Shown piece after piece: positions 16,000 to 34,867 of a stretch of DNA of 39,480 nt. Under the pieces are notes generated by a model. The model saw nothing but the letters and a program-made list of their open reading frames with translations, had not been told where the DNA came from and did not search any database. The position numbers were made by a program, and so were the translations under genes. Positions within the stretch are counted from its first letter, which is position 1; the number at the start of each line of letters is the position of its first letter. Source of the DNA: a virus. The stretch lies in the IMG/VR virus record IMGVR_UViG_3300037829_000176, positions 1 through 39,480 of that record. One strand, written 5' to 3'.

Positions 16000-16399
16000 G
16001 GTAGAAGAAGATTTAAGAAGAGAACAAGTTGCTATTAAAAAATTTGTAGACATATTCGGTGGCTCATTCCAAAAGTTAGACCAATTTGACATTGACTACA
16101 AGGTCTTTGACAAAGACAAGAACTTAATAGCTTACGCAGAAGTAAAGGGTAGGATAAGAACAATGGACAAGGCTTACCCACTTCCTATAGCCGTAAGAAA
16201 AATCATGAAGTTATCTGAAAAAAGACTAAACCCTGTTCTTATATGGGCCTGTGAAGATGGCATAATTTACGCCAAGTTGAATGAGTTAGTAGGTCAAATA
16301 AAATTTAGTGGTAGAACTCCACGAGCAAATTCTACCAATGACATGGAGATTATGGCTTACTACGATAAACAAAAATGTTTAAAGTACGTTAGGTTTTAA
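15986..16399 (+). CDS. PD-(D/E)XK-like nuclease-fold protein (137 aa)
   Basis: The order FDIDYKV (34-40, Asp37), a turn, then AYAEVKGR (49-56, Glu52, Lys54), with an upstream helix containing Glu9/Glu13, is the pattern of a PD-(D/E)XK nuclease core. The remaining sequence (LNPVLIWACEDGIIYAKL) supplies further strands. Similar small phage proteins are often annotated only as hypothetical or nuclease. It is the last plus-strand gene; its stop overlaps the stop of the 3136-residue minus-strand gene. No terminator separates the two arms. Substrate unknown. Confidence 0.65.
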   Translation: MTIFEVEEDLRREQVAIKKFVDIFGGSFQKLDQFDIDYKVFDKDKNLIAYAEVKGRIRTMDKAYPLPIAVRKIMKLSEKRLNPVLIWACEDGIIYAKLNELVGQIKFSGRTPRANSTNDMEIMAYYDKQKCLKYVRF

Positions 16400-19300
16400 T
16401 CTTGATTGTAACTCCTAGAATAACTTCTTGAATAGCTTCTTGAAGACCTTCCCGAAGAACCTCTTGATTTAGTTTGTTTGCTTGAATTTCCAAAACCATC
16501 ATTGCCACCAAAACTATCACCCCCTCCAAAGCTATCGCTACTTCCAAAACTACTACTGCCACCAAAGCTGTCGCTACCTCCAAAAGTACCACTAGCCTTT
16601 TTTTTCTTAGGAACATATTGCTCACCATATTCAAGAGCATCCATTCTATTTTTTAACTCCCTGTTTATTTTTAAAGACTCTTCTCTTTTTTTATCATACA
16701 GTTTAAATGCATTTTTTGCATTTTCTTTCTCTCTTTTCTCAAAGTCTGTTCTACTACTATATTTAGTTTTATCTAATATAGATTTAAGCATATCTTCTTC
16801 TATTTTATTTTCTGACTTTCTATATTCAGGGTCTTTTATTTTTCGTAACTCCTTCTTTATTCCTTCCATTGTATATGCTCCACTATTCATCATTTGTTTT
16901 AAGATACTTGTTTTTTGAACAATTTCTTCAGCATCTGCTTTATCTTGAGACTCCTTCTTTACGGCTTTTTCTTTTGTTTCTTTTTTCAATTCCTTATATA
17001 CTTCTGCTAAAGCAATTTTCTTAACATCTCTATAGAAAGGAACAGCGCCTAATAATCCTAATGTTTCCATGCCCGCTCTATACCATTCTTTCGCTCTTGT
17101 TAGTTTTGCTCTTTCTGTTTTTGGTTCAGGTTCTAATAACTTAAATCCTAACTCACCAACCCCAATTAACGGAGCATAAGGTCCTGCAATAATTTTAACT
17201 AAATCTGTAGGCTCATCAATCTTTCCTTTTTGAAGTTGATTAAATTGTACTGCATCTTCATAAGGGTCATACTCTCCATTTCTAAGACCAATTTTTTCGC
17301 CATATTCTTCATTTGCTTTTTCTATCAAAGAATTCTCTATAACTCTAATAATATTTCCAAAACTTCTTCCAATTAATAAAGTTGTCGCAGAAGAAACAAC
17401 ACCTTGATAAAGTCTCTGTAACATTGTTTTTTTATCCTCATCATCATCATCATTTCCATAGCCAAAAGCACTTAACATTAACTCTGACAATAATCTAGTG
17501 GCTGTTACATATAGTGTCATCCTTGCCGTAACGGCAGCTAAAATTTGCGCTCCTTGTTCCCAAGGAATATCACCATTACCAACTAATGCATTAACACCTT
17601 TTCTAGCAGTATAGTATTCTTGAACGGTAAACTTGTTCATAAACTTATTAAAGTTTTTAGCTATCTGTTTTGTAGAGCTGTCTCCTTCTCTTACTACATT
17701 TTGTAAGATTCCCATATAAGCATTTGTGCTAGAACCTGCGGATATAGTTTGTGTGTCTGCATTATTTTTTGCTTTTGTTAAAGCGTCACGGTATTTATCC
17801 ATGTACTCTTCATTATTTGCTTTGATTTTATCAAAATCAGGTGCTACACCTGTTTCTTTTTGAAAAGAACGAGCAAAAGCACCAAACCATAATGGCTTCA
17901 TTACAATTTTATCGGGTTGAGATATTAAATTATCTGCAACAAATTCTACACCATTTACCCATTTACCTAAAGTGTTATCATAAAGTTGAAAGACACCATT
18001 AACCTCACGACTTTGTATATTTCTATTCTTGCTAAGTTTACTTGTAACAGCACTCAAATCTACAAGTCCACTACTTAATTTATCTGAAGGGTAATTTCTT
18101 GATGTTACCTTACTGCCTAGTATTGTTAATATATTTTTTGCATCCTCTGATGTTGATAATGTCCAATATTCACTCATTCCAACAGCCATATCTCTTGGAT
18201 TGTTTAATAGAACAAAAGATACGTTTGACATAAGCTCAGATATTGCTCTTGGCGCACTTGCAAGCATAGACCTATACCCTGTTTTTTGAAGCCAATTCAT
18301 GACCTCATTTGACTGAGTAAAGTTTGATTGAAGTAAGTCCCTAGTAGCTGTGTCATATGCTTCGCCTATAGTATTAAGAATTTCGTATTGGTCGGTTGTT
18401 GCATCATTATCTTCTAGTAATTTCATTGCTTTTGATAATGTCTTTCTAGCTGTTCTTATTGGCTCTGTCATATGATAATTAATAAGCACAGACCTTGCAC
18501 TTTGATTTACTGCAAAAAAAGCGTTTAAGTTTACAGGATGAACCTTAGTATCTCTCTCTTCTAAATTTTTAGAAGTAGTAGTAGGATTCATATTATTACT
18601 CATGTTATTAATTAATTCTGCTGTAGACAATCTATCAGAAGCACTAATTGTATTATAGAAAACATAATTTTTTATTGGTTTTATTTTTTTTCCATTTATT
18701 ACAGAGGCAGTGTAAGTAGCCTTTTTAGTCATTCTGTTATTTATTTCCTGAAGTTTTTTTAATGCATTTTTTTCAGCTTCATTAAAAGAATCATATAGTT
18801 TATCAATATCTATTTCACCATCTTTTTGAAAATTATCTTTTATAAATTCCATTTGCTTAATATCGGCAGCTTTATATCCACTTTTTTTACTATTTTGTTT
18901 TGCGAATTTAATGGTTTCATCTAAGGTTTTCATTGCCTGATGAACTTGATTGTTATTTGGATTTGAATTATACTCAAGTTGCATCATATATACCATCATT
19001 TTAAATTTAGATAGTATAACTTTATTACCATTATTTTTAAATATATTTGATATTGCTTTTTCTACTTGTGTTAATTCACCTTGAATATCTGTAATCTCAG
19101 ATTGATATATTTGCTGTGCTACAGCAGATTGTTCAAAAACAGCGTTGAATATTGTTTTAGTTTTAAAGTCACCAAATTGTTCATCTATATTAAATAAAGG
19201 CGCTATATTAACTCCAAATTTATCTCTAGAAGTACGGTCTGTTATATATTGTTTTATTTTTTTAAATATACCTGCAACAGTTTTAGGTATAGCAGCTTCT

Positions 19301-22300
19301 AATGAAATACTTTTTTCTATGAAGTTTAACTTCTCTACCATCTGCTGTGTAGCATTGGATACGAAGCCATTGTTTATGTTGTCAATGATTCTAAGTAAAT
19401 CTTTTAAATCTTTATTGTTAAAACTTTCAAGTGTTTTTTTATTCTTTAAAAGTGCTTGTAGTTTTTTTACTAAATCTCTTTCTAATCTAAACTCATCTCC
19501 AACAATCTCATCCAATGTTATTGTGGTATTGTTTATCTCATCAATTAACTCTGCTTTCTCATCAGCAATCTCTTGCTCAGTCATTTTTTCCTTAACCTTT
19601 GCTCCTTGTATCTTTGACTTAAAGGTCTTCATTAACTCATGTTCAGTCTTATCGATAACGCCATCCTCCAACATTTTATCTAATGTTTTTGAGTAATTTA
19701 CAACCTTATTTTCTACAACCTTATCTGCAAAGTTATCATACAACTCTTTCAAGTCAGATACTCTCTGCTCATTTGACTCAATACTTTCAATGATTTTATC
19801 TAAGCTTTCATTTAAGTCGGCTCTTTTATTTAATTCCAATATTGCATCTCTTTTAGATAGCATATCAACTATCTCGTAGTAAGACTCAAATACATCACTC
19901 GGTATTAGCTTTGCATTAATGTTTAATACGCGTGATAGTGGCTCTAATAAATCAGATGAGATGTCTCCAAGCTTTGTTAAATTTTTCTTTGCATTTTTTC
20001 TATTTGTGTTTGCTTTATCTACTTTGGCATCATAGTCTGCAATACCAATAACTTTATCAACGTAGTCTATAAACTTATCGTATTGTGTTTGGCTAAACAC
20101 GTTGAATCTTGCAAGGCGTAGCATGATTGATTTCATCTGCACGGCATTCAAGTTTTGAACTTTGCCTTTTAGCATAGTGCGAATTGCATTTTCTGCATTT
20201 GCCCTTAATGTTTTAGACTCTGTCTTTACTGCAAGTTTTGCTTTTCTTACAGCTTCTCTAATTTCAACAAATTTAGCTCTAGCCTCTTGAATATCTTGTT
20301 CATTTGTTTTTTGGTCAACAAATGTATTCCTTAAATATTCTTCTATTTCTTTAGTAAACTCAGCAATAGTTATTTTTTTATTTTTATGTTCTTTTCTATA
20401 TTCCTTTGCCATTGCTCTAATAGAAGCGTTTATAGTATTACCTGCAATAACTCCTGCACGGATTCCTTTTAAAATAAGCTTCAATGTTCCTAATGTAACT
20501 CCTGCATCAAGTTTTGCGTATGTAAGTTTATCTAAACCATTAAGAGTTTTAATGGCGGCATCTAAATAACTTATTAATGTATTTTTATTTTCAGGATTTT
20601 TAGCATCTAAGTTTTCAATCTTTTTAACTTCTTCTTTTAATGCTTGTACATGTCTATCTAAATCAAGTTTTAATCCATCTAAATCATCTTTAAGGATATC
20701 TTCAATTTCTTTTATATCTGCTTCAAGGTCCATTACTGTACCTTCTTTTCCTTTCGATTCTTTTAAATCAATAATTTCCTCACGAATTTTATTAACCTTC
20801 TCTCTAGCTTCTGCTCTTGCTTTTTCTATTTCTTCGGTTGTATCTTTAATATCTTCTTTAATAGAATCAATAGCACCCATCAAATCCTCTGTTGATACTT
20901 TTGCAGGTACAGGTGCTTCCTCTACAGGTGCTTCAACCTTTACTTCTTCCTTTACAGGTTCTACTTTAGCTTCAACGACAGGAGCTTTTGCTTCTGCCCT
21001 ACTTCTAATAGTTAAATAAAATTCTACATATTTATTACGCATTTCAGGGTATAAAAATTTTCCATTTTTATCCTTTTTTGAATACCTTTTAATTATTTCA
21101 TCTGCATATTTATAGGGGTTTGACTTAAGTAACTTAAGGTCTTTATCAAAACCAACAGCCCCATCTTCTATCATGCTTTCTAAAAACAACCTTTCTTCAG
21201 CTATAGCTTCTTCTATTTCTTTAGACATTTCTACTACAGGTTCTGCTTTAACCTTTGTTTTAGAAGTTACCTTTGCCTTAGTAGGTTCAACTTTAGCAGG
21301 AGTTATAACTTCATCAATATATACTTTTGTTTTGTTTTTAGTTTCAACAAACCTTCCTCTTTTCTCATCAGTTTGTATTGTTAGATTAGCTTCAACACTT
21401 GCTCTCTTTGGAGTTAAAGTTCCTATCTTTTTAAGTTGGACTTTTGCTGTAGCTCCGTCTTTAGAAACAACTATACTATACTCGGCTTCTGTTCCGTTAT
21501 TATCTACTGCTCTTACTGTAGCTCCTTTACCTTCTTTCTCAACTCTTTGCGCTTCCTTTTTTATTTTATTCGCTCTTTTATCTAATATTTTTTCGGCAGT
21601 TGAGATTTTTGCTTGAATAGCTATTATCTCTTCTTTCTGTGCTACAGTTGTTCTTTTTCCAAGGTCAAGTAATGGCTTTAATTTTCCATATTGAATTTCT
21701 TTCATTGACCTAATAACAGCATCGTCATACTCTTCAACCTTAGACCAAGACATAACAGTTGGTTTACCCTTTGCTTTTGGGGCTTCCGTTTTAGTTACAG
21801 GAGCTTTAACCACAGGTGCTTTAGCTTTAACAACAGGCTCTAATAGAGGACTGATTAGCGCATTATACTTCTCGTATATTTTATTATACTTAGCCAATAC
21901 AGTTTTCGGCATTTTAGTTTTATCTATCTTACCTTTTACTTTATAACTTTCTATTTTAGGTATGGCTTTAAGAAGTTCTGCTTGTTCTTCAGCTCTTAAA
22001 GTTGCTACTTGCTCTTGTGGTGTTGCTTCCGCTTCCACTACAGAAGTTTCTTCTGATATATCTACATCAGCTTTAGTATCTGTAGTAGTTTTATTGTACT
22101 TGGACCTTCTATCTTTTACTTCAGTTTCAAATTCAGCATCTTCAACTATTTCATAAGTATCTAAAGCTCTTTTAAAAGCATCCCTATATACTTGTTGTAG
22201 TGCTTCGTCTTTTTCACTAGCACTTATCATCCCATTATTTCTTTTTGCTTCTATTCTTTTAATTTCTCTTTCTTCTTCCTTATTTAAATATACTTCTGCA

Positions 22301-25300
22301 CCAACATTAATAGGTCTTCCTTGGTCATCATTTTCATTAAACTTATCTGAACTTAAACTTACAACATATCCCTCTGCAGTAGCACTATACCCTGCTCTTC
22401 TTTTACCTTCTTGATTTTCTTTTATTCTATCAATTCTAGCTTTAAATAATTTTCTAGGTGTACTTACACTTACTGCCTCACCTTCTGATATATCTACATC
22501 AGCTTTAGTGCCTGCTGTTTTAACCACAGGAGTCTTATCCTGTTCTTTTGCAAGTAACTGAAGTTCTTCTTCTAAAGTTAGTGGTACTGCTTCTTCTCCT
22601 TTAACTTCAGTAGTTGTTTCAGTAGTTACCGCATTATACAAATTATTGTAAAAATCATATGAGTAAGGAGTTTGTAATTCTCCATTTTCATCTTTTTCGG
22701 AAAAATACTCTAACTTTGATTTTGCATATTCAATAGGATTTGAGTTAAATAACTCAAGATCTTGTTTTTTAAGATTAATTTCTGTTTCATAATAACTACG
22801 GTCTTCTTTAGATGTAGCATCTTCAAGATTTTTTTGAAGTGATTGTAAGTTATCTTCAAGAGAGTTTTTTTCTGTTTCTATAGAACTCCTTACTTCTTCG
22901 GCTTTACCTTCTTCGGTAAGGACTTGAGGTTTTGTTGTGGGTTCTCCTTGGACCACTTCTTCGCCAACTGCGGTTGTTGGCTGTACAGGTACTTCACCTG
23001 CTGTTTGCTCTTGAATGGCATTTTCTACTGTGTTTTTTTCTCCTATTTCTTGAAGACGTTCATTAATTTCATTGACTCTTGCTGCTTGTCGCTTTACAAG
23101 ATTAGGGTCTTTCCCTTCAATTTGTTTGTTAAGCTCATTTTTTTCTAATAGTAAACTCAATGATGCAGATTGCCCTTCAACTGTTAAGTTTTCAGGCATT
23201 TGATTCATCATTCCACGAACTATTTCAAAGTTATTTGAAATCTCTTCTGCTTGCTCTTTTGTTATTCTATTACTAAGCATATCTGACTTGAGATTAGACA
23301 TAAGCGCCTCACTCATACCACTTGTCTTAGCAGCCATCAAAAGATTATTTAGCTCTTTGCTTTTTAAAACATTGTTGCGTTTATATGCATCTTTTGCTAT
23401 ATATATACTATGAACCATACCTCCGCCTAACGCACCAAGATACCCTTCATAAAGCGCTCCTTTGACTATATCTCCAAATCCTTCGTTACTAAAAAATTCA
23501 GTATCTTTTGCTGTATCATATATTTCTTTAATACCCGCACCTGTTAAACTTTGAAGTGACTCAGTAACGCCCTCGACACTCATTGCTCCTAATGTACCAA
23601 GACCTAAACTTGCAATATATGATTTGGTTTCGTTTCTTACAAGTGCATCAATTGCTTCTTTGGGAGCATCTTTAGGTAATGATTTTGCTAATACTCTTTT
23701 TAAAATATTACGTTTAATTGATGAGCCTATTGCAGTATCAATTTTACCTAATGCATACTCCATACCAATTGATTCAAGCGCTGAAGATACTACACCATAT
23801 ATAGATGCCATTGCTACTTTATCACTTTCGGCAATATCAATCTCTTCTAACTCATCTTTCATCTCATAATAAGACATAGGATAAAATGCAGTAGCAGTCA
23901 TTGCTCCTCTTGCTAATAATCCTGTACCTAATAAAGTAGTACCACCTGAAAGAGCCATTGGGGCCATTGCTCCTAATGATTCTGTAACTGAAAATGCAGC
24001 TTTAGTTAAATCGCTTCTTTCTTCAGAACGCAAATATTCTAGGCTTGTATCAAAATCCCATAATGGACTTATAGCTTGTTTAACTGCTTCATGATATTCT
24101 GCGGCACTCATATCTCTTCCTGTAGAGCCTGCAAGTAATCTAACAGGAGATAATACCCCTTTTATAGCACTTAATACTAATCCACCACCAATGCTGCCTT
24201 TTGTTTCTTGAATAAGATAATTCTCACCAACTGATTTATTGACATTTTTTATTAATGAGTCTGATATTTTTATTTGGTTTTGTATCTCTTTTTCTTGGTC
24301 TATTAATTCTTTCTGTCGATTGGTGTAATCTAATTTATATTGGTCTTCTGTTATTTCTCCATTATCGTATTTATTCTGAAGATTATTAAAAAATGATGTA
24401 TCATTTAATTTACTTTTATATGAATCAATATTATACTTAATATCTTCTTGGTATTTATTTACATTACCAATTTCTACCTTATCACTTGCTAATGCACCTA
24501 AAGCTGCTTGCGCCCTTGTTTTTTCATACTCCGAAACATTGCCTTTATCGCTTGTATATTTTGAGTATTTATTGACAATATCATTTAATTTTTGAGACTT
24601 GATAGGCATCCAATCTGCTCTTAATTCTTTTGCCTCTTTATTAGCTTTTTCTTTTTCTAATGCATATTGTGTTGACTCTAAAGAAGGAGCAGTAACGTCA
24701 TTGGGATTAATTGCTTTTTTTAAATTAAGCGACATATCTTCCTGCATTGCCTTCATTGCTGCTGTATCGCCAACATTTGGATATTTAAACGAGGCTTCTT
24801 TGGCGTTTGCTCTTCTTACATTTTCATATTGTTTTTTCTCAGAAGGAGAAAGATTATTGCCTTCCATCCAACCAATCATTTCTTCAGATATTTTTTTATC
24901 TTTATCCCAAGTCCAATTATCAAGAGTAAACTGTTCTTTGTTTCCTTTTGGAGATGTTATCTCTATTTTGTCACCTGCATTAATTTCGTTAAATGTAAAT
25001 AAAGGGAATTTTCTTCTTAATACATCAACAGCTTCTTCTTCTTCGCCTCCAATTAATTGTGCATTAATTGATTTAAGATTAGCATAAAAATTTGATTCAT
25101 ATAGATTATCTTCTTTGATTTTAGATATCTTTTCAGGCTCTATTTTTTTAGCACTCTGACCAAATTGATTGTTAAGAGCTGATATAGAATTTTCATTTGT
25201 AACAGTTACCCAAGTTTTATTTTCAGGAGTTCTTCTCTGCCAAGTACCATCATTATTAATTTTATATTCATTTTGTTCTTTGCCCGGATATCCAATAAAA

Positions 25301-25806
25301 ACTCCTTTTTCAGTTCCCGCAGTTTTATTGAATTGCTTATTAAGTGCCGATACTCTTCTTGGGTCTTTTATTGGGTTATCTAATTTTTGTATCTGTTCTT
25401 TATCACCTAAAATAGTTGAGCTATACTCATACCATTGGTTGTCATTAAACCTATAACCCTTACCTTCTTTTCCGGGATAGTTATCAAAAAATTCACCATT
25501 CCCACTATAATATTTATCTCCTACTTTTTTATATTTAGAATAGTCAGTTTTCGGAGATTCCGATGAACCATCGCCCAAAATTGACCCCCCATTTTCGGCT
25601 TGACTTTTTTTTTTAATTGAACCAATTCCCATTAAAGTTTTAAACGAATTGATATCTTCATTATACCCTTCCTGTTTAAATATATCATAAGTTTGCTTTA
25701 ATGCATTTCCATTGGTTGATATTAATTGTTTAAAATCATCAATAGAACCATTATATCCTTCCGACTTAAATATACTATATCCTTGTTGTATTGCTTCTTC
25801 GTTCAT
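16396..25806 (-). CDS. Giant internal virion protein (3136 aa), polyvalent-protein type
   Basis: Residues 1-62 hold two ~30-residue repeats (YSIFKSEGYNGSIDDFK, YDIFKQEGYNEDINSFK) found at the start of large Bacteroidota phage proteins. Hydrophobic segments lie around 540, 610-645, 725-745 and 780-800. From ~860 to 2400 it is mostly charged helix with Ala/Pro/Lys linkers (~1320-1345, ~1605-1635), two related modules starting SNPxxYA (~1020 and ~1560), and twin TKADVDISE tags. Around 2520-2800 is a conserved region (ISELMSNVSFVLLNNPRDMA; MTLYVTATRLLSELML) like the large polyvalent-protein C-terminal domains. The end (~3070-3136) is FGG/SFG repeats, then Arg-Ser-Tyr repeats. It is probably an ejected inner-core protein, last of the virion operon. 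I saw no RNA polymerase DxDGD or muramidase motif. Confidence 0.75.
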   Translation of the reverse strand: MNEEAIQQGYSIFKSEGYNGSIDDFKQLISTNGNALKQTYDIFKQEGYNEDINSFKTLMGIGSIKKKSQAENGGSILGDGSSESPKTDYSKYKKVGDKYYSGNGEFFDNYPGKEGKGYRFNDNQWYEYSSTILGDKEQIQKLDNPIKDPRRVSALNKQFNKTAGTEKGVFIGYPGKEQNEYKINNDGTWQRRTPENKTWVTVTNENSISALNNQFGQSAKKIEPEKISKIKEDNLYESNFYANLKSINAQLIGGEEEEAVDVLRRKFPLFTFNEINAGDKIEITSPKGNKEQFTLDNWTWDKDKKISEEMIGWMEGNNLSPSEKKQYENVRRANAKEASFKYPNVGDTAAMKAMQEDMSLNLKKAINPNDVTAPSLESTQYALEKEKANKEAKELRADWMPIKSQKLNDIVNKYSKYTSDKGNVSEYEKTRAQAALGALASDKVEIGNVNKYQEDIKYNIDSYKSKLNDTSFFNNLQNKYDNGEITEDQYKLDYTNRQKELIDQEKEIQNQIKISDSLIKNVNKSVGENYLIQETKGSIGGGLVLSAIKGVLSPVRLLAGSTGRDMSAAEYHEAVKQAISPLWDFDTSLEYLRSEERSDLTKAAFSVTESLGAMAPMALSGGTTLLGTGLLARGAMTATAFYPMSYYEMKDELEEIDIAESDKVAMASIYGVVSSALESIGMEYALGKIDTAIGSSIKRNILKRVLAKSLPKDAPKEAIDALVRNETKSYIASLGLGTLGAMSVEGVTESLQSLTGAGIKEIYDTAKDTEFFSNEGFGDIVKGALYEGYLGALGGGMVHSIYIAKDAYKRNNVLKSKELNNLLMAAKTSGMSEALMSNLKSDMLSNRITKEQAEEISNNFEIVRGMMNQMPENLTVEGQSASLSLLLEKNELNKQIEGKDPNLVKRQAARVNEINERLQEIGEKNTVENAIQEQTAGEVPVQPTTAVGEEVVQGEPTTKPQVLTEEGKAEEVRSSIETEKNSLEDNLQSLQKNLEDATSKEDRSYYETEINLKKQDLELFNSNPIEYAKSKLEYFSEKDENGELQTPYSYDFYNNLYNAVTTETTTEVKGEEAVPLTLEEELQLLAKEQDKTPVVKTAGTKADVDISEGEAVSVSTPRKLFKARIDRIKENQEGKRRAGYSATAEGYVVSLSSDKFNENDDQGRPINVGAEVYLNKEEEREIKRIEAKRNNGMISASEKDEALQQVYRDAFKRALDTYEIVEDAEFETEVKDRRSKYNKTTTDTKADVDISEETSVVEAEATPQEQVATLRAEEQAELLKAIPKIESYKVKGKIDKTKMPKTVLAKYNKIYEKYNALISPLLEPVVKAKAPVVKAPVTKTEAPKAKGKPTVMSWSKVEEYDDAVIRSMKEIQYGKLKPLLDLGKRTTVAQKEEIIAIQAKISTAEKILDKRANKIKKEAQRVEKEGKGATVRAVDNNGTEAEYSIVVSKDGATAKVQLKKIGTLTPKRASVEANLTIQTDEKRGRFVETKNKTKVYIDEVITPAKVEPTKAKVTSKTKVKAEPVVEMSKEIEEAIAEERLFLESMIEDGAVGFDKDLKLLKSNPYKYADEIIKRYSKKDKNGKFLYPEMRNKYVEFYLTIRSRAEAKAPVVEAKVEPVKEEVKVEAPVEEAPVPAKVSTEDLMGAIDSIKEDIKDTTEEIEKARAEAREKVNKIREEIIDLKESKGKEGTVMDLEADIKEIEDILKDDLDGLKLDLDRHVQALKEEVKKIENLDAKNPENKNTLISYLDAAIKTLNGLDKLTYAKLDAGVTLGTLKLILKGIRAGVIAGNTINASIRAMAKEYRKEHKNKKITIAEFTKEIEEYLRNTFVDQKTNEQDIQEARAKFVEIREAVRKAKLAVKTESKTLRANAENAIRTMLKGKVQNLNAVQMKSIMLRLARFNVFSQTQYDKFIDYVDKVIGIADYDAKVDKANTNRKNAKKNLTKLGDISSDLLEPLSRVLNINAKLIPSDVFESYYEIVDMLSKRDAILELNKRADLNESLDKIIESIESNEQRVSDLKELYDNFADKVVENKVVNYSKTLDKMLEDGVIDKTEHELMKTFKSKIQGAKVKEKMTEQEIADEKAELIDEINNTTITLDEIVGDEFRLERDLVKKLQALLKNKKTLESFNNKDLKDLLRIIDNINNGFVSNATQQMVEKLNFIEKSISLEAAIPKTVAGIFKKIKQYITDRTSRDKFGVNIAPLFNIDEQFGDFKTKTIFNAVFEQSAVAQQIYQSEITDIQGELTQVEKAISNIFKNNGNKVILSKFKMMVYMMQLEYNSNPNNNQVHQAMKTLDETIKFAKQNSKKSGYKAADIKQMEFIKDNFQKDGEIDIDKLYDSFNEAEKNALKKLQEINNRMTKKATYTASVINGKKIKPIKNYVFYNTISASDRLSTAELINNMSNNMNPTTTSKNLEERDTKVHPVNLNAFFAVNQSARSVLINYHMTEPIRTARKTLSKAMKLLEDNDATTDQYEILNTIGEAYDTATRDLLQSNFTQSNEVMNWLQKTGYRSMLASAPRAISELMSNVSFVLLNNPRDMAVGMSEYWTLSTSEDAKNILTILGSKVTSRNYPSDKLSSGLVDLSAVTSKLSKNRNIQSREVNGVFQLYDNTLGKWVNGVEFVADNLISQPDKIVMKPLWFGAFARSFQKETGVAPDFDKIKANNEEYMDKYRDALTKAKNNADTQTISAGSSTNAYMGILQNVVREGDSSTKQIAKNFNKFMNKFTVQEYYTARKGVNALVGNGDIPWEQGAQILAAVTARMTLYVTATRLLSELMLSAFGYGNDDDDEDKKTMLQRLYQGVVSSATTLLIGRSFGNIIRVIENSLIEKANEEYGEKIGLRNGEYDPYEDAVQFNQLQKGKIDEPTDLVKIIAGPYAPLIGVGELGFKLLEPEPKTERAKLTRAKEWYRAGMETLGLLGAVPFYRDVKKIALAEVYKELKKETKEKAVKKESQDKADAEEIVQKTSILKQMMNSGAYTMEGIKKELRKIKDPEYRKSENKIEEDMLKSILDKTKYSSRTDFEKREKENAKNAFKLYDKKREESLKINRELKNRMDALEYGEQYVPKKKKASGTFGGSDSFGGSSSFGSSDSFGGGDSFGGNDGFGNSSKQTKSRGSSGRSSRSYSRSYSRSYNQD
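16478..16600 (-). repeat. FG/Ser/Gly low-complexity repeat tract
   Basis: Degenerate tandem repeats of about 18 bp code for SFGGSDSFGGSSSFG-type repeats near the C-terminus of the giant virion protein. The Arg/Ser/Tyr-rich end (SRSYSRSYSRSY) follows to about 16405. Confidence 0.7.
22050..22077 (-). repeat. 28-bp direct repeat, copy 1 (codes TKADVDISE)
   Basis: Bases 22050-22077 are identical to 22482-22509. Both lie in frame in the giant virion gene and encode TKADVDISE before an acidic linker. The exact identity points to a recent duplication or gene conversion. Confidence 0.75.
22482..22509 (-). repeat. 28-bp direct repeat, copy 2
   Basis: Exact copy of 22050-22077, 432 bp away. That distance is a multiple of three, so recombination between copies would remove 144 codons and keep the frame. 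Confidence 0.75.
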
Positions 25807-28512: not shown

Positions 28513-29334
28513 TTAAGGGAAACTTTTCATTAACTCGCTTTCAGTAGCAAATAATTCTATTTTTATATTATAATTATTTGACAATTCAAATAAACAATAA
28601 TGACCCAATACTCCGTGAGATTCTGCGACAGAGTTTTTATTGAACAAAAAGTATTCTGTTTGTGTAGGTATAGGAGTTGTCCAAATAGGTGTAGTATCTA
28701 TAATAATATAGTTAAGTCCTGCAACATAGTCTTGAACAACATTTGTTACAATACCTACACCTACTGCAGATGATGAAAAGTAAAGAATATCTCCAATGCT
28801 TATTATAGTTCCTATAGCAATAAGGGGATTTATTGAAAAGTTAATTGTTGCTGTAGTTGCAGTAAAAGTAACACTTATACTATTTCCTATTCCATTAACA
28901 CTCCTTAATGGATATTCAGGCGCAGACATTGGAGTAGTTCCACTATTCCTTACAAACGCAAACCAAGTGGCTTCTTTTTTCTCAAACCAATTTTGGGCTA
29001 TAAATCCTGTATATTGTAAGTCTGTTGTCATTGTTGCGGCCCAAGGAGCATCTCCCACTAAATCCATTGTCTTAAATAATTTGTTCTCAAGAGGTAAATC
29101 ATTTATAACACTTTTAAGTGTTGTTGGAGAAAAAGGGTCTAATGCAGGGATATTTTGTAAACACCATTGTTCGTAAAATGTATTCCTTGCATTGTTTGAG
29201 CTATGTCTATATAAATTCCCACCCTTAAAAGAATAGAAATAGTTATTCATTCCTATCATCCAATCAGGATTGTAAGAGTAGAATGAAGGCCATCCTTGAA
29301 CGGCAGGGCTATATGTAAGTGTTTTAAAGCTCAT
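28513..29334 (-). CDS. Virion protein, tail-associated (273 aa)
   Basis: It opens with FKTLTYSPAVQGWPSF, then YSYNPDWMIGMNN and FKGGNLYRH. This motif set (GWxSFxSYxPDWMxGxNNxFYxFxxGxLxxH) I recall from structural or stabilization proteins of crAss-like and related phages. The later part is beta-rich and Ser/Thr/Ile-rich (ISVTFTATTATINFSI). It lies between the small tail protein and the GNAT enzyme in the virion operon. It is probably a tail component located at or near the hub; the exact position is unknown. The complete reading frame has no internal breaks. Confidence 0.7.
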   Translation of the reverse strand: MSFKTLTYSPAVQGWPSFYSYNPDWMIGMNNYFYSFKGGNLYRHSSNNARNTFYEQWCLQNIPALDPFSPTTLKSVINDLPLENKLFKTMDLVGDAPWAATMTTDLQYTGFIAQNWFEKKEATWFAFVRNSGTTPMSAPEYPLRSVNGIGNSISVTFTATTATINFSINPLIAIGTIISIGDILYFSSSAVGVGIVTNVVQDYVAGLNYIIIDTTPIWTTPIPTQTEYFLFNKNSVAESHGVLGHYCLFELSNNYNIKIELFATESELMKSFP

Positions 29335-29336
29335 AT

Positions 29337-29522
29337 CTAATTATCACAAAAAGTTGCAGGGTCTAAAACCCAAATTCCGGGGGTCACTTCATACCAATAT
29401 CTACAAATAATACCATCAGAATAATATCCTGCTGCTGCAGGTGCTGACATAGTAATATCGCTATATATATACGATGCTGTAGCAAGGTCTGTAGAATCTA
29501 AATAATAAGTTGAAGCAGGCAT
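29337..29522 (-). CDS. Small tail-associated protein (61 aa)
   Basis: The frame extends up to 29546, overlapping the stop of the tail hub gene by 13 nt. I choose the second ATG (29522) because it follows AAAAATT, the usual leader, and avoids the overlap. The product reads YYLDSTDLATASYIYSD, then TMSAPAAAGYYSDG and RYWYEVTPG. Short beta-rich proteins of the pattern YLDSxxLxxATxVYxD...PAxxGYYSDG are frequent beside tail genes in Bacteroidota phages. Function unknown, probably a tail or spike accessory. Confidence 0.6.
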   Translation of the reverse strand: MPASTYYLDSTDLATASYIYSDITMSAPAAAGYYSDGIICRYWYEVTPGIWVLDPATFCDN

Positions 29523-29533
29523 AATTTTTATTT

Positions 29534-32500
29534 TTAAAGTGGGCAATCACAATTTACAAATTCAACATCTACAAGAAGTCCACTTGCGCCATTAGTTGCC
29601 CAATAACTTTGTTCTGCAACACAAATTTGTGAGCTAGTTCCGGCAGGAATGGTTTCAGTAATAACTTCTCCCTCACCACATACAAATATTCCTGTTAAAT
29701 CAACTGAAACAGCATTATTATTTGTTACATTAACAGTATAACATTCTGCACAACAATTGCATTCATTTATATTATTAATAATCAATAAAGGATTATCTGA
29801 TATTATTGATTGAGCGCACAAAAATAATCCATTATTAGCTTTTATTTCTTGGTCTATGTGAATAATGCCATCACAATCTGTTACAGAATATATAATAACA
29901 TCGACAAGAGAAGGGTTATAAATATAATAAGTAGAACAACATATTCCATCACAACCGCAATCATTATTTGTAAAATCTAAGTTTTCAATAAATTCAATTC
30001 CGTCAGAAATAATAAAGTATCCTAAATCAATAAATGGAGTGATGCATCGTTGAATAGTGGTTAAAGCATCAATTGAAATAATAACATCAGATTCATTTTC
30101 ACAATCAAGCATACCTGTAAATTCTATATCTCTTTCTCCTGTATTTTCAATAGTAAAGTCTATGCATTCGTCTCCACAACAAAAACATCCTAAATACATA
30201 TAAGTAAAAGTTGGCTCTCTCATCTCTGCAGGAAAATCTCTAGCACATATAAATAGCGCTCCATAAGCAGGGAAATCATATCCATAAGTTCCTTCATCTC
30301 CAATTATAGCATTATTTCCATTGCAATCAACATATCCAATTGAACTCCATATTCGAGAATTATTATTTACAACAAGCCAAGACCCACAATTACAAGGGGG
30401 AGGAGTATAACAATCTGTACAAGCAGTTATACAATCTTCTGCACTAAAACATAACTCTACAGCTGTACTTTGCCTTAAATCCCAAATTAAATATAAGAAA
30501 TTATTTAAAGCAGGAGTAGTAAAAGTTCCTTTCCATTGAGTTACACTTGGTTGTGTAAGTGGAGTTATATCTGTAGCAACAGATAAAAGTGTTGTAATAT
30601 CTATTTGATTGTTTTGATAAAATGTATTGCTTGTGTGATATAAAAATTTATTAGGAGGACCATCAAAGTCATCAGTACCTATTTTATTTGTATATAGATT
30701 TGTATCTACTCCGGGATATGGAAAACTTCCTTGACCCCAAAAACCTGCGTCAATATTATAATATGATACAAGAGGATTGGAACTTGGTAAAGCAAAATTA
30801 ACTTGATTGCTCTGTAGTGGTGATGAATATGGTATTAAAGGGTCAAAATAATTATATTGATTATGTATAAACATTCCCGCATTTGAACCATCAGTAATTA
30901 CTACTTGAACTAAAAATATTTCAATACATTCTTGACATTGATTATCAACATTAAAAGTAACAATTGCGTTTGGTGCAATAGTAATAACAATTTGCAATTC
31001 AAGTACAAGGGGATTATTTACACTATAAGGAACGCTTATTGTTCCAACTCCATTAATACTATTTGATATTGTAGTTCCATCATAAGTAACATCTAAAGTA
31101 ATTAAACCTGAAGATGGGTCACCTGAAGGTAAATTAAATGTTGTTAATACAATATTTCCATCTGCAATACAATTAGTTAACTTTACGCAATAGCTTATTA
31201 CTCTTTCAGGTTTATCTGTATTATCTATATTAAATGAATTTATTTGACCACACCCAAAGCAATCTATTATATTTGGTATCTCTATATCATTACTTGTTAG
31301 TACATACTCATTCATATATGGGTCATAACCACCAAGTTTCTGTGTAGTTTGAGCATTAATAAACTCATCTCTAAACCAAGTTCTCATTCCAAATTCAGAC
31401 ACTACTTGTAGTTGGTCGCTTTTCATTGAATCACCTTGAATGTGAATTACAGCACCTCTCTTTGTATCAGTAAAATATCTATCAGCACCCCATTGAACAT
31501 AACTTTCAGGATTATGGCTTATTCCATATTTTTCAGTTCTTGCAATTTGAGTTCCTAATACTTCAGGAACTACAGTCAATGCTCTACCTGCCGAAGCATC
31601 TGACAATAAATTCTTACCTGCTAATACATATGATATCTTATCTTCTTGAATACATAGCACATCTGTTTCTCTACCATCTAAAACATATATATATCCAAAG
31701 GAAGACTCTAAATATTTATAATTTAAAAGTCCTAAATTAAACTCATTTAATTTGTTTAAGTTTGTTTCAGGGTTATATATGCCACTATATGTTATATCTG
31801 AAAATCTATGTGCTTCTTTATAATCTTGAGCAGAAACAGATGTAACTCTTTCTCCAAGATTAAATTCTCTTCCTACTATTGAATCTCTAACCTTATAACT
31901 TTCAACTCCATTTCCAAAAGAAAAACAATTAAAGAAACCTGTGTCTATAATTGCAGGTTGACCTAAAGCAAAGTCTTGGTTAGCTATATTTCCATCGTGT
32001 TCTCCTGTAGTAGGATTTATAACAAATGATAAATTATTTTCAAAAAACACATCGGGCAAAGCATCTATTGGAAGTGTTTCAAATATAAACTCAGGTCCTA
32101 TTGTAGTTCTTTGTAATGAAAAATATAGTTTTGCTATTGACTTATAACTAGCGGGAGAACAATCTTCAGTACCCGACATATGGAAAGTTAACATATTATT
32201 AGCAGGGTCACGATTTATATATAGTTTCATAACATTACTAGATATACTACTTGTAACAAGAGTATTCATCGCAGCAATACTTAAGCCAAATACTCCATTA
32301 AATGTTATAGACATATTTATTTCTTGTAAAGCATTAAAAGTAGACATAATAGCCGTTTGATTTGCTAAAAACCAACTTTCCAAACTAGCATAAGATTGAG
32401 TCGCAGTAAAATAAGAGTAAGCGTTAGCTCCATTTATTTCTCTTTTTCCACAACCACCTATTGGTTTTCTATAAGTATATAACAGAATTCCTATTGTAGA

Positions 32501-34867
32501 CCCAACAGGAACATCAAAGTCTGTGTATGTTAATGCAGGAGGAACAGGAAAAGCAGGGTCTGACCAACTCACTCTTGTAGTAGCCAATGAAGTTAAATCA
32601 GAAGTTCCAACAGAGTATTCATTATAAATTGGAATAGGACTAACCTGCGATTCAAAATTACCTGCTTCTAAACGCATATACACTCCTTCAATAAGAAATG
32701 TCGCATCTTTTTGTTTTGCTATTTTTTCTAAAACAGTTGTATATAAACAACTTTCAGTTGGTCCACTTGAATCTTTTTTTACAATAAGCCTGTCTCCAAC
32801 CTCAACTTTTTGCATATTTTCACCCTCAAGTAAAAACCAAAATAAACTATCTACATCTTGAACTACAAGAGTTGAGTATATTGTTTGATATCCTTCTTGG
32901 TCAGGTTTTATTACAAACTTATATCTTGTTGCCCAATATGGAGCTATTTGTGATACAGGTATAGTGACTTGTATTGAGTTTTTATTTGGTGATGATGAGC
33001 AAGGGGTGTAAACCGCATTTAATGGGCTTACAAGAGCTGTTGATGAACGTAAAAAATCATCCATATAAACAATTCCTATCTCATATCCTCTATTGCTATG
33101 TAAGCTTCTTGCGTTCCCAAGTTTATTAAATGTTACGATACTATTTACTATACTATAATATTCATACGCATAAGTTCCAAGATTATTTACATCTTCATAT
33201 TGCATTGCAACTAATTGCAAGTCAATATAAGTGTTTAAATTAGATGCTATTATTGCTATAGGTTCGTCTATAGCAGTAATACCTGAAGCTCTTTTTTGCC
33301 ATCCACTAGCTTGATTCGTAGGTATATCACAATTAAAATAATCTGTAAGTGTACTTCCATCACAAGAAGTAGGGGTTGCAGGAATAGGGTCATATACAGG
33401 AAGTATATTTATAAGTGTTCCTACCCATTCTTGAAATTCAGCACTTTGAGACAAAGCATATGGACTTACATAATTTTGAGCAAGAGTAAATGTTAATGAA
33501 GTACTTGTATTCCCTGTTTGTGTTGTAGGTTGTGTTCCTCCTGTATAACTATGGTGTGTAAAGTCTAAGTTAACTTGTATTGTAGCTCCAACTATTAAAG
33601 TTGTATTATAATTTGGACCAAAAGAAGCAAAATCTATTCTTAAAATAGAATTAGGCACACTATGACTTCCATCTATAGTGTAAACAGAAGTTTGAGCACT
33701 TGAGTCTAAAGCCTCTGATGCTATATCTTCTTGTATTAACTTTGCTTCATATGTAAGTTGTAATGTTTGTCCATTAAGTGATATCAAATCATATCCTTCA
33801 ACATAGTTTCCATACATAATTCTATTGCCCATAAGCGTTTGAGCTTGAGCAAATCTTGGGACATTATCATATAACCTTAATAACTCAGCTTCAGGTAAAA
33901 CAGTAAAGATTTTACTATTGTCAAATGTTAAAGTTTTATATGTATCATTTGGAATACCTAAGTCTGCCTTATTTTGTTTCTCAATTATTTTTATTATATT
34001 GCTTTCCGATTGCTTAAATAATAAGTCTATTCCTAAAACAAGAGAGTTTCCTGTCCAATAAGTGACTTGACAAGCATTGAATGCATTTATCATTCCCTCA
34101 TTCAAATATGCCTCAATAGTTAATTCAAATCCATTTGGCGTAAAAGCAATGTCAGACCATTGAGATGTAGCTGAGTATTCACCATCGGCATATAAATATC
34201 TATAAGCAAATGATATAAACCTCTCCTCCATAAAATTCTGTTCTCCTTGAGTATTTACTAACTGCACAGTTGGAGATTCTACAGGTGGTCTTTTAATTAC
34301 AAGTAATGACTCTTCAAGTAGTAATGCTGCAGGAATACTACCCGCATCAATAAACCCTACAGGTATAGCATAACTTCTATTTATATTTATTGACCTTGGA
34401 GCATTATAGTTATCTGTAAAAAACAATAACTCTTCTATTTTATTTACTCCTGTAATTAAATATTGAGGATTAAAATTTAATGTTGTATCTACACCACCAC
34501 CATTATCTATGGCAATAACATGATACGTTAAAGAAAGTGTATTTGTATTGAATGAAACAATTAAATCAAGTTTACCTGTAGCACCTAATGGAAAACTAGG
34601 GTCATGTACAAACCAATAAATAGTTTCTATTGAACCATCTTCGTATGCACCAATGCATCTAGCATCTACACTTAATAATGTATTTTCAAATCTTAAAGTT
34701 GTAAGTGAAATATTACCTTTTGTATTTTCAATAACTCCAAATTCAGAATTTTCTGTCGAACCCATTCTGATATTCATTGCATCAATATACTCCCCATTAG
34801 GGACAACTCTCTCATCGAAAGTTTTATTCATCTTACCTGCAACAAAATTTCTAGTAAACTTTGGCAT
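29534..34867 (-). CDS. Tail hub/stabilization protein with a Cys-rich four-repeat C-terminus (1777 aa)
   Basis: The N-terminus FTRNFVAGKMNKTFDERVVP, then NGEYIDAMNIRMGSTE and GVIENTKGN is a strongly conserved opening of large tail proteins in crAss-like and marine Bacteroidota phages. A propeller-like or hub body follows (about 1-900), then beta-rich segments up to ~1480. The last ~295 residues (from about 1483) are four repeats of 67-81 residues, each with paired Cys clusters and a central (D)C-x-G-type turn. The C-terminal part is a plausible receptor-binding region; that role is inference. Length exceeds typical hubs because of the C-terminal modules. It begins 1 bp after the ring protein gene. 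Confidence 0.75.
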   Translation of the reverse strand: MPKFTRNFVAGKMNKTFDERVVPNGEYIDAMNIRMGSTENSEFGVIENTKGNISLTTLRFENTLLSVDARCIGAYEDGSIETIYWFVHDPSFPLGATGKLDLIVSFNTNTLSLTYHVIAIDNGGGVDTTLNFNPQYLITGVNKIEELLFFTDNYNAPRSININRSYAIPVGFIDAGSIPAALLLEESLLVIKRPPVESPTVQLVNTQGEQNFMEERFISFAYRYLYADGEYSATSQWSDIAFTPNGFELTIEAYLNEGMINAFNACQVTYWTGNSLVLGIDLLFKQSESNIIKIIEKQNKADLGIPNDTYKTLTFDNSKIFTVLPEAELLRLYDNVPRFAQAQTLMGNRIMYGNYVEGYDLISLNGQTLQLTYEAKLIQEDIASEALDSSAQTSVYTIDGSHSVPNSILRIDFASFGPNYNTTLIVGATIQVNLDFTHHSYTGGTQPTTQTGNTSTSLTFTLAQNYVSPYALSQSAEFQEWVGTLINILPVYDPIPATPTSCDGSTLTDYFNCDIPTNQASGWQKRASGITAIDEPIAIIASNLNTYIDLQLVAMQYEDVNNLGTYAYEYYSIVNSIVTFNKLGNARSLHSNRGYEIGIVYMDDFLRSSTALVSPLNAVYTPCSSSPNKNSIQVTIPVSQIAPYWATRYKFVIKPDQEGYQTIYSTLVVQDVDSLFWFLLEGENMQKVEVGDRLIVKKDSSGPTESCLYTTVLEKIAKQKDATFLIEGVYMRLEAGNFESQVSPIPIYNEYSVGTSDLTSLATTRVSWSDPAFPVPPALTYTDFDVPVGSTIGILLYTYRKPIGGCGKREINGANAYSYFTATQSYASLESWFLANQTAIMSTFNALQEINMSITFNGVFGLSIAAMNTLVTSSISSNVMKLYINRDPANNMLTFHMSGTEDCSPASYKSIAKLYFSLQRTTIGPEFIFETLPIDALPDVFFENNLSFVINPTTGEHDGNIANQDFALGQPAIIDTGFFNCFSFGNGVESYKVRDSIVGREFNLGERVTSVSAQDYKEAHRFSDITYSGIYNPETNLNKLNEFNLGLLNYKYLESSFGYIYVLDGRETDVLCIQEDKISYVLAGKNLLSDASAGRALTVVPEVLGTQIARTEKYGISHNPESYVQWGADRYFTDTKRGAVIHIQGDSMKSDQLQVVSEFGMRTWFRDEFINAQTTQKLGGYDPYMNEYVLTSNDIEIPNIIDCFGCGQINSFNIDNTDKPERVISYCVKLTNCIADGNIVLTTFNLPSGDPSSGLITLDVTYDGTTISNSINGVGTISVPYSVNNPLVLELQIVITIAPNAIVTFNVDNQCQECIEIFLVQVVITDGSNAGMFIHNQYNYFDPLIPYSSPLQSNQVNFALPSSNPLVSYYNIDAGFWGQGSFPYPGVDTNLYTNKIGTDDFDGPPNKFLYHTSNTFYQNNQIDITTLLSVATDITPLTQPSVTQWKGTFTTPALNNFLYLIWDLRQSTAVELCFSAEDCITACTDCYTPPPCNCGSWLVVNNNSRIWSSIGYVDCNGNNAIIGDEGTYGYDFPAYGALFICARDFPAEMREPTFTYMYLGCFCCGDECIDFTIENTGERDIEFTGMLDCENESDVIISIDALTTIQRCITPFIDLGYFIISDGIEFIENLDFTNNDCGCDGICCSTYYIYNPSLVDVIIYSVTDCDGIIHIDQEIKANNGLFLCAQSIISDNPLLIINNINECNCCAECYTVNVTNNNAVSVDLTGIFVCGEGEVITETIPAGTSSQICVAEQSYWATNGASGLLVDVEFVNCDCPL

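Follow-up and report, generated by a model that had tools for sequence, protein, structure and literature searches.

In phage phiCrAss001, six muzzle subunits assemble into a hexamer at the tip of the tail, which likely acts as a gatekeeper and probably contacts the cell surface, and the phiCrAss001 tail is reported to be stabilised by disulfides (PMC10172136). The tail of the Agrobacterium phage Milano forms a disulfide network (PMC10811340). Both precedents weaken a point made in the original prediction for the locus described here, namely that abundant Cys residues are unusual in phage tails. We analysed a window of 39,480 nucleotides (positions 1 to 39,480 of IMG/VR record IMGVR_UViG_3300037829_000176), in which a muzzle protein is divided over two genes and its first piece ends in four Cys-rich modules.

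A muzzle encoded by two genes

The module-bearing ORF (29534-34867, minus strand) encodes 1777 aa with the four Cys modules at its C-terminus. The label of a tail hub, originally given to its product, proved to be wrong, as the protein is a crassvirus-type muzzle: Pfam PF25731 (crAss_MUZ) matched residues 6-246 with 33.5 bits against a cut-off of 27. In addition, phrog_14478 (virion structural protein) matched residues 6-753 with an E-value of 1e-202, while a search of PDB chains with the full-length muzzle profile returned no convincing match. Related muzzles were found in the Manatee Spring phage ctfjg026 (44% over 87%), in Cellulophaga phi18:3-type phages and in Flavobacterium elemo phages; the hosts of the relatives of the window phage are Cellulophaga and Flavobacterium. 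Residues 1-1199 (31271..34867, minus strand) comprise, by homology, the ring-joining, propeller, IG and crass regions of the muzzle core. They are followed by an extra region, residues 1200-1465 (30473..31270, minus strand), which was delimited on the basis of alignment A2, ends in a conserved LYLIWDLR motif and is missing from the elemoA-type muzzles (elemoA and the Wenyingzhuangia locus L112).

In these two single-chain muzzles, the first ~1200 residues align to window residues 1 to ~1190, and the last 235 residues correspond to a separate gene of the window (28513-29334, minus strand). Its 273-aa product matched residues 1235-1469 of the elemoA muzzle (E = 8e-28), residues 1176-1411 of the Wenyingzhuangia muzzle (E = 1e-27) and phi18:3 gp115 (E = 3e-30). 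Judged by this homology to single-chain C-termini, the gene is the detached C-terminal part of the muzzle, and the whole propeller-containing core is therefore not carried by one chain in the window. The same split was found in phi18:3 gp114/gp115 and in ctfjg026. The first piece of the window muzzle carries, at its broken end, the region 1200-1465, a Cys linker and then the four modules, after which a small ORF (29337..29522, minus strand; 61 aa from an internal ATG) and the second muzzle piece follow. The small ORF encodes a YYSDGIICRYW domain, and the corresponding YYSDG(I/T)ICRYW domain is fused in frame to the muzzle in L014, L015 and L018, all of which are devoid of Cys modules; in L018, the muzzle end carries this domain twice. 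In L038, L053, L077, L089 and others, the YYSDG protein is enlarged to ~440 aa and bears a C-terminal Cys module of its own.

Two further observations concern regions outside this junction. Residues 701-940 of the muzzle (~32048-32767 of the window) represent a second variable stretch among close relatives, with raised pairwise dN/dS values of 0.55-0.87, possibly reflecting exposed loops of the crass domain. A 3136-aa protein encoded on the minus strand at 16396-25806 gave no Pfam match above cut-off.

Anatomy, distribution and predicted fold of the Cys modules

The array is preceded by the Cys linker LCFSAEDCITACTDC-YTPPP (residues 1466-1491; 30395..30472, minus strand), whose conserved form LCYS...(A/V)CC.C is present in almost all homologues. 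At the muzzle ends of L039, L048 and L067, a linker of the form LCYS......CC.C is repeated two to three times without an intervening beta module, much like a unit in its own right. All four modules lie on the minus strand: module 1 spans residues 1492-1564 (30176..30394; 73 residues; 96% aa identity to the close relative L005), module 2 residues 1565-1639 (29951..30178; 75 residues, with coordinates that include the border Cys 1564 common to module 1), module 3 residues 1640-1706 (29750..29953; 67 residues, coordinates from residue 1639) and module 4 residues 1707-1777 (29537..29752; 71 residues, coordinates from residue 1706).

Four Cys-rich repeats of 67-81 residues, bordered by CFCCGDEC, CGCDGICC and CNCCAEC, had been predicted from residue 1483 onwards. 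The border motifs are present in the translated ORF, divided between neighbouring modules as CFCC/GDEC, CGC/DGICC and CNCC/AEC, and the number of four modules held; the repeats measure 67-75 residues, however, and begin at residue 1492, with residues 1483-1491 forming part of the Cys-containing linker. Self-alignment, proposed as a check on the repeats, gave weak scores: of the six module pairs, only modules 2 and 4 stood clearly above shuffles (p<0.001). It was replaced by a leave-clade-out profile, built exclusively from muzzles of ≤52% identity outside the window clade, which independently detected module 2 (E = 6e-6), module 3 (E = 8e-5), module 4 (E = 6e-6) and part of module 1, while a wider profile detected all four. 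The first 1465 residues contain 16 Cys, whereas the last 286 contain 24 (hypergeometric 3e-9); across 2000 shuffles, no stretch of 286 residues exceeded 19.

Profile searches of all fetched loci yielded 97 distinct modules, which lie at the C-terminal ends of muzzles, at the end of the ~440-aa YYSDG protein and in L111. The family signature consists of six Cys (C-x2/3-C ... C ... C ... C-x-C) and is found in the window modules. In five of the six columns, the Cys is retained by 91-96 of the 97 modules; in the first column it is present in 67, most of the remaining modules having an alignment gap where the border Cys is shared. The L111 modules are devoid of the outer C1 and C6 together and keep C2 and C5. 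On this MAG contig, the modules of both the muzzle (L111:2-3442) and a neighbouring protein (L111:7499-9262) are set between long Thr-Pro linkers and alternate with a second kind of Cys unit.

The claim that no named domain shows this spacing holds for Pfam, PHROGs, PDB sequences and Foldseek against the PDB. Searches of Pfam and PHROGs with 38 modules gave just scattered weak matches of one or two members, the C-terminus of the window muzzle matched no Pfam or PHROG entry, and the PDB sequences contained no family matching the modules. Tblastn searches of isolate phages with the C-terminus and with single modules returned nothing or only a weak match to MW202828, and scans with other modules recovered just the same muzzles or neighbour proteins. 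Sharing with flavobacterial surface adhesins had also been considered, but the module was absent from all 399 genomes of the flavobacterial family of the Wenyingzhuangia genome G001, and an origin from these adhesins is therefore not supported; the profile used did recover its targets in the genome G002.

Structure prediction, suggested as a further check, was in line with the expected beta modules. The AlphaFold (AF2) model of module 2 comprises six strands in an all-beta arrangement (pLDDT 75, pTM 0.63), and the model of the four-module tail consists of repeated all-beta units (pLDDT 81, pTM 0.56). Foldseek searches against the PDB gave no match at E≤0.001, the search with four modules being limited by their flexible orientation (pTM 0.56), and none of the known folds for adhesion or carbohydrate binding, such as Ig-like, CBM29 and cupin/jelly roll, was matched significantly. 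Weak matches to CBM29, ASRT and cupin folds appeared; the cupin, toxin and CBM29 matches were not significant and hence not used. In BFVD, one unnamed phage protein matched the fold with an E-value of 5e-7.

Variation in module number and block exchange of modules 2-4

Comparison of repeat numbers, as proposed originally, revealed that homologous muzzles carry between zero and four modules: among 58 muzzles, 14 have none, 30 have one, one has two, four have three (the third module of L072 being counted by eye) and nine have four. The core tree implies at least eight changes in module number. L014, L015 and L018 fall inside the four-module group, yet they carry no module, and their DNA proceeds from the Cys linker directly to the YYSDG domain. 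Further module-free muzzles occur in L047, L049, L084 and L105-L107, so that in these lineages a muzzle can work with no module at all. At the C-terminus of the phi18:3 muzzle (L086), a cadherin-like repeat (NEAPIAVADSVGVNKGDSVIINVLDNDSDPDGDDLTV) was recognised by eye where the Cys modules would be, and the muzzle C-terminal slot may thus carry other domains as well.

Comparison with the close relatives L005 and L006 (the same contigs as L001 and L002) delimited an exchanged cassette at 29551..30175 (minus strand) that covers modules 2-4 and leaves module 1 outside. The DNA of the window and L005, its nearest relative, is 94-97% identical through module 1 (dS 0.09-0.22), and identity drops from the module 1/2 border to 52-60% across modules 2-4 (dS 0.6-1.4), the same range applying to both relatives. 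The borders are sharp in the DNA. The 5' flank is 92-97% identical, and in L006 an identity of 93% is regained at the 3' flank, ~30 bases upstream of the stop codon, and persists beyond it; the DNA downstream of the cassette is ~89-93% identical. Between the window allele and those of L005 and L006, all 17 cassette Cys are kept (17/17), compared with 32-35% of the other residues.

Phylogenetic analysis grouped the window with L005 in the core tree (100/100) and with L017 in the cassette tree (100/100). The AU test rejected the opposite grouping in each tree (p = 8e-5 and 3e-7, likelihood differences of 93 and 170); although the groups were picked after the identities had been seen, the likelihood differences are nevertheless large. 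This strong conflict between core and cassette trees led to the conclusion that modules 2-4 were swapped as a block between close relatives by recombination. In other close pairs, too, the tail is less conserved than the core (0.55-0.57 versus 0.89). In pairwise comparisons of the cassette, dN/dS mostly falls below 1 while synonymous sites approach saturation, and positive selection is therefore not demonstrated. A diversity-generating retroelement was also considered as the source of variation and was not retained, since no reverse transcriptase match was found in the 39.5 kb record, which may be partial, and since the divergence includes indels over the whole cassette, unlike the point variation generated by such elements.

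Proposed role and comparison with described systems

We propose, with a probability of roughly 60%, that the modules constitute an exchangeable array for host contact, stabilised by disulfides, at the muzzle tail tip. A variable, block-exchanged array whose Cys scaffold stays fixed is what would be expected of a host-contact surface in this position. The absence of a significant match to an adhesion or carbohydrate-binding fold, the existence of module-free muzzles and the low dN/dS of the cassette speak against this reading. By analogy to phiCrAss001, the window muzzle would form a hexamer at the tail tip (PMC10172136), with the modules on the outside of the tip and perhaps 24 modules per tip. 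Each small all-beta module would be held by approximately three intra-module disulfides, formed outside the reducing cytoplasm, and the modules would extend like a string of beads from the C-terminus of the first piece of the split gatekeeper assembly. Module 1 would act as a conserved base and modules 2-4 as a recombinationally exchangeable surface that touches a host surface structure, tunes adsorption specificity and may help to set off muzzle opening, while the Cys scaffold would permit this surface to diverge to ~35% identity with retention of the fold. A swap of modules probably changes what the phage grips on its host. More tentatively, the split-propeller muzzle could represent a plug-in slot on the gatekeeper, in which exchange of the disulfide-module cassette couples host recognition directly to gate opening, rather than through separate tail fibres; we regard this extension as conceivable but somewhat doubtful.

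The modules could alternatively serve as spacers or stabilisers that lengthen or brace the muzzle, their divergence resulting from weak constraint and ordinary phage recombination. The existence of muzzles with no modules, the generally low dN/dS (<1) and the role of disulfides in the assembly stability of the phiCrAss001 tail (PMC10172136) are compatible with such a function, but weak constraint predicts neither the sharply bordered replacement of a whole block with conflicting trees, nor full retention of Cys at 35% identity elsewhere, nor a conserved module 1 beside divergent modules 2-4, and we consider this explanation unlikely. The modules could also be a docking platform for further proteins of the tip instead of the host, for instance for the YYSDG protein encoded downstream or for the ~440-aa version with its own module in L077-like phages. 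The adjacent YYSDG gene, the module of the same family at the end of the YYSDG protein in L077, L038, L053 and others, and the fused YYSDG domain that replaces the modules in L014, L015 and L018 are in line with such a role. As the downstream DNA stays ~89-93% identical despite replacement of the cassette, no co-varying partner is seen in the neighbourhood, and we consider docking improbable.

Binding of a metal such as Zn by a four-Cys site between modules, formed by the border Cys C-x2/3-C ... C-x-C, is the least probable explanation, with only a slight chance of being correct. The spacing and the six conserved Cys are compatible with such a site, yet the joint absence of C1 and C6 in L111 modules that keep C2 and C5 fits paired disulfides better than four ligands, and disulfides are documented in the related phiCrAss001 tail (PMC10172136). 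The L111 pattern suggests nested disulfides C1-C6 and C2-C5 plus C3-C4. With respect to the predicted disulfide- or metal-stabilised beta modules in a receptor-binding part, the all-beta folds support the beta modules, the variation in number and sequence is as expected of a host-contact part, and the pattern of Cys loss favours disulfides over metal.

In environmental crass-like phages, host-recognition parts are mostly unassigned, and the cassette offers a concrete, testable candidate that is bounded, has a clean recombination border and lies inside an otherwise conserved gatekeeper protein. The unnamed module family can now be recognised by profile. The muzzle itself is already known; within the searched libraries and the open-access literature, we found no description of a muzzle that is split and bears unnamed Cys modules in an exchangeable cassette, and as far as these sources extend, this arrangement is undescribed.

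Comparison with the phiCrAss001 muzzle gp44 places the N-terminus of the window protein above the PF25731 cut-off, and a tail-tip location and a gate role are expected; the window muzzle differs in being split in two genes and in its C-terminal extension with four Cys modules. For phiCrAss001, the IG2 and crass insertions are described as varying in length, with no mention of such Cys modules in the passages concerned (PMC10172136), and the break between the two muzzle pieces suggests a third site of muzzle variation beside these insertions. The muzzle of ctfjg026 (MW202828) is split like that of the window and has a single module of this family at its end as opposed to four, whereas Cellulophaga phi18:3 gp114/gp115 (Pachyviridae) share the split but end in other repeats and have no Cys module. 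The Flavobacterium phage elemoA muzzle (KNV10_gp25) and its Wenyingzhuangia counterpart have a homologous core on a single chain, with neither extension nor modules. The Milano tail resembles the proposed array in that disulfides stabilise an extracellular tail machine (PMC10811340), but it consists of unrelated contractile tail proteins held by an interchain network instead of tandem Cys modules.
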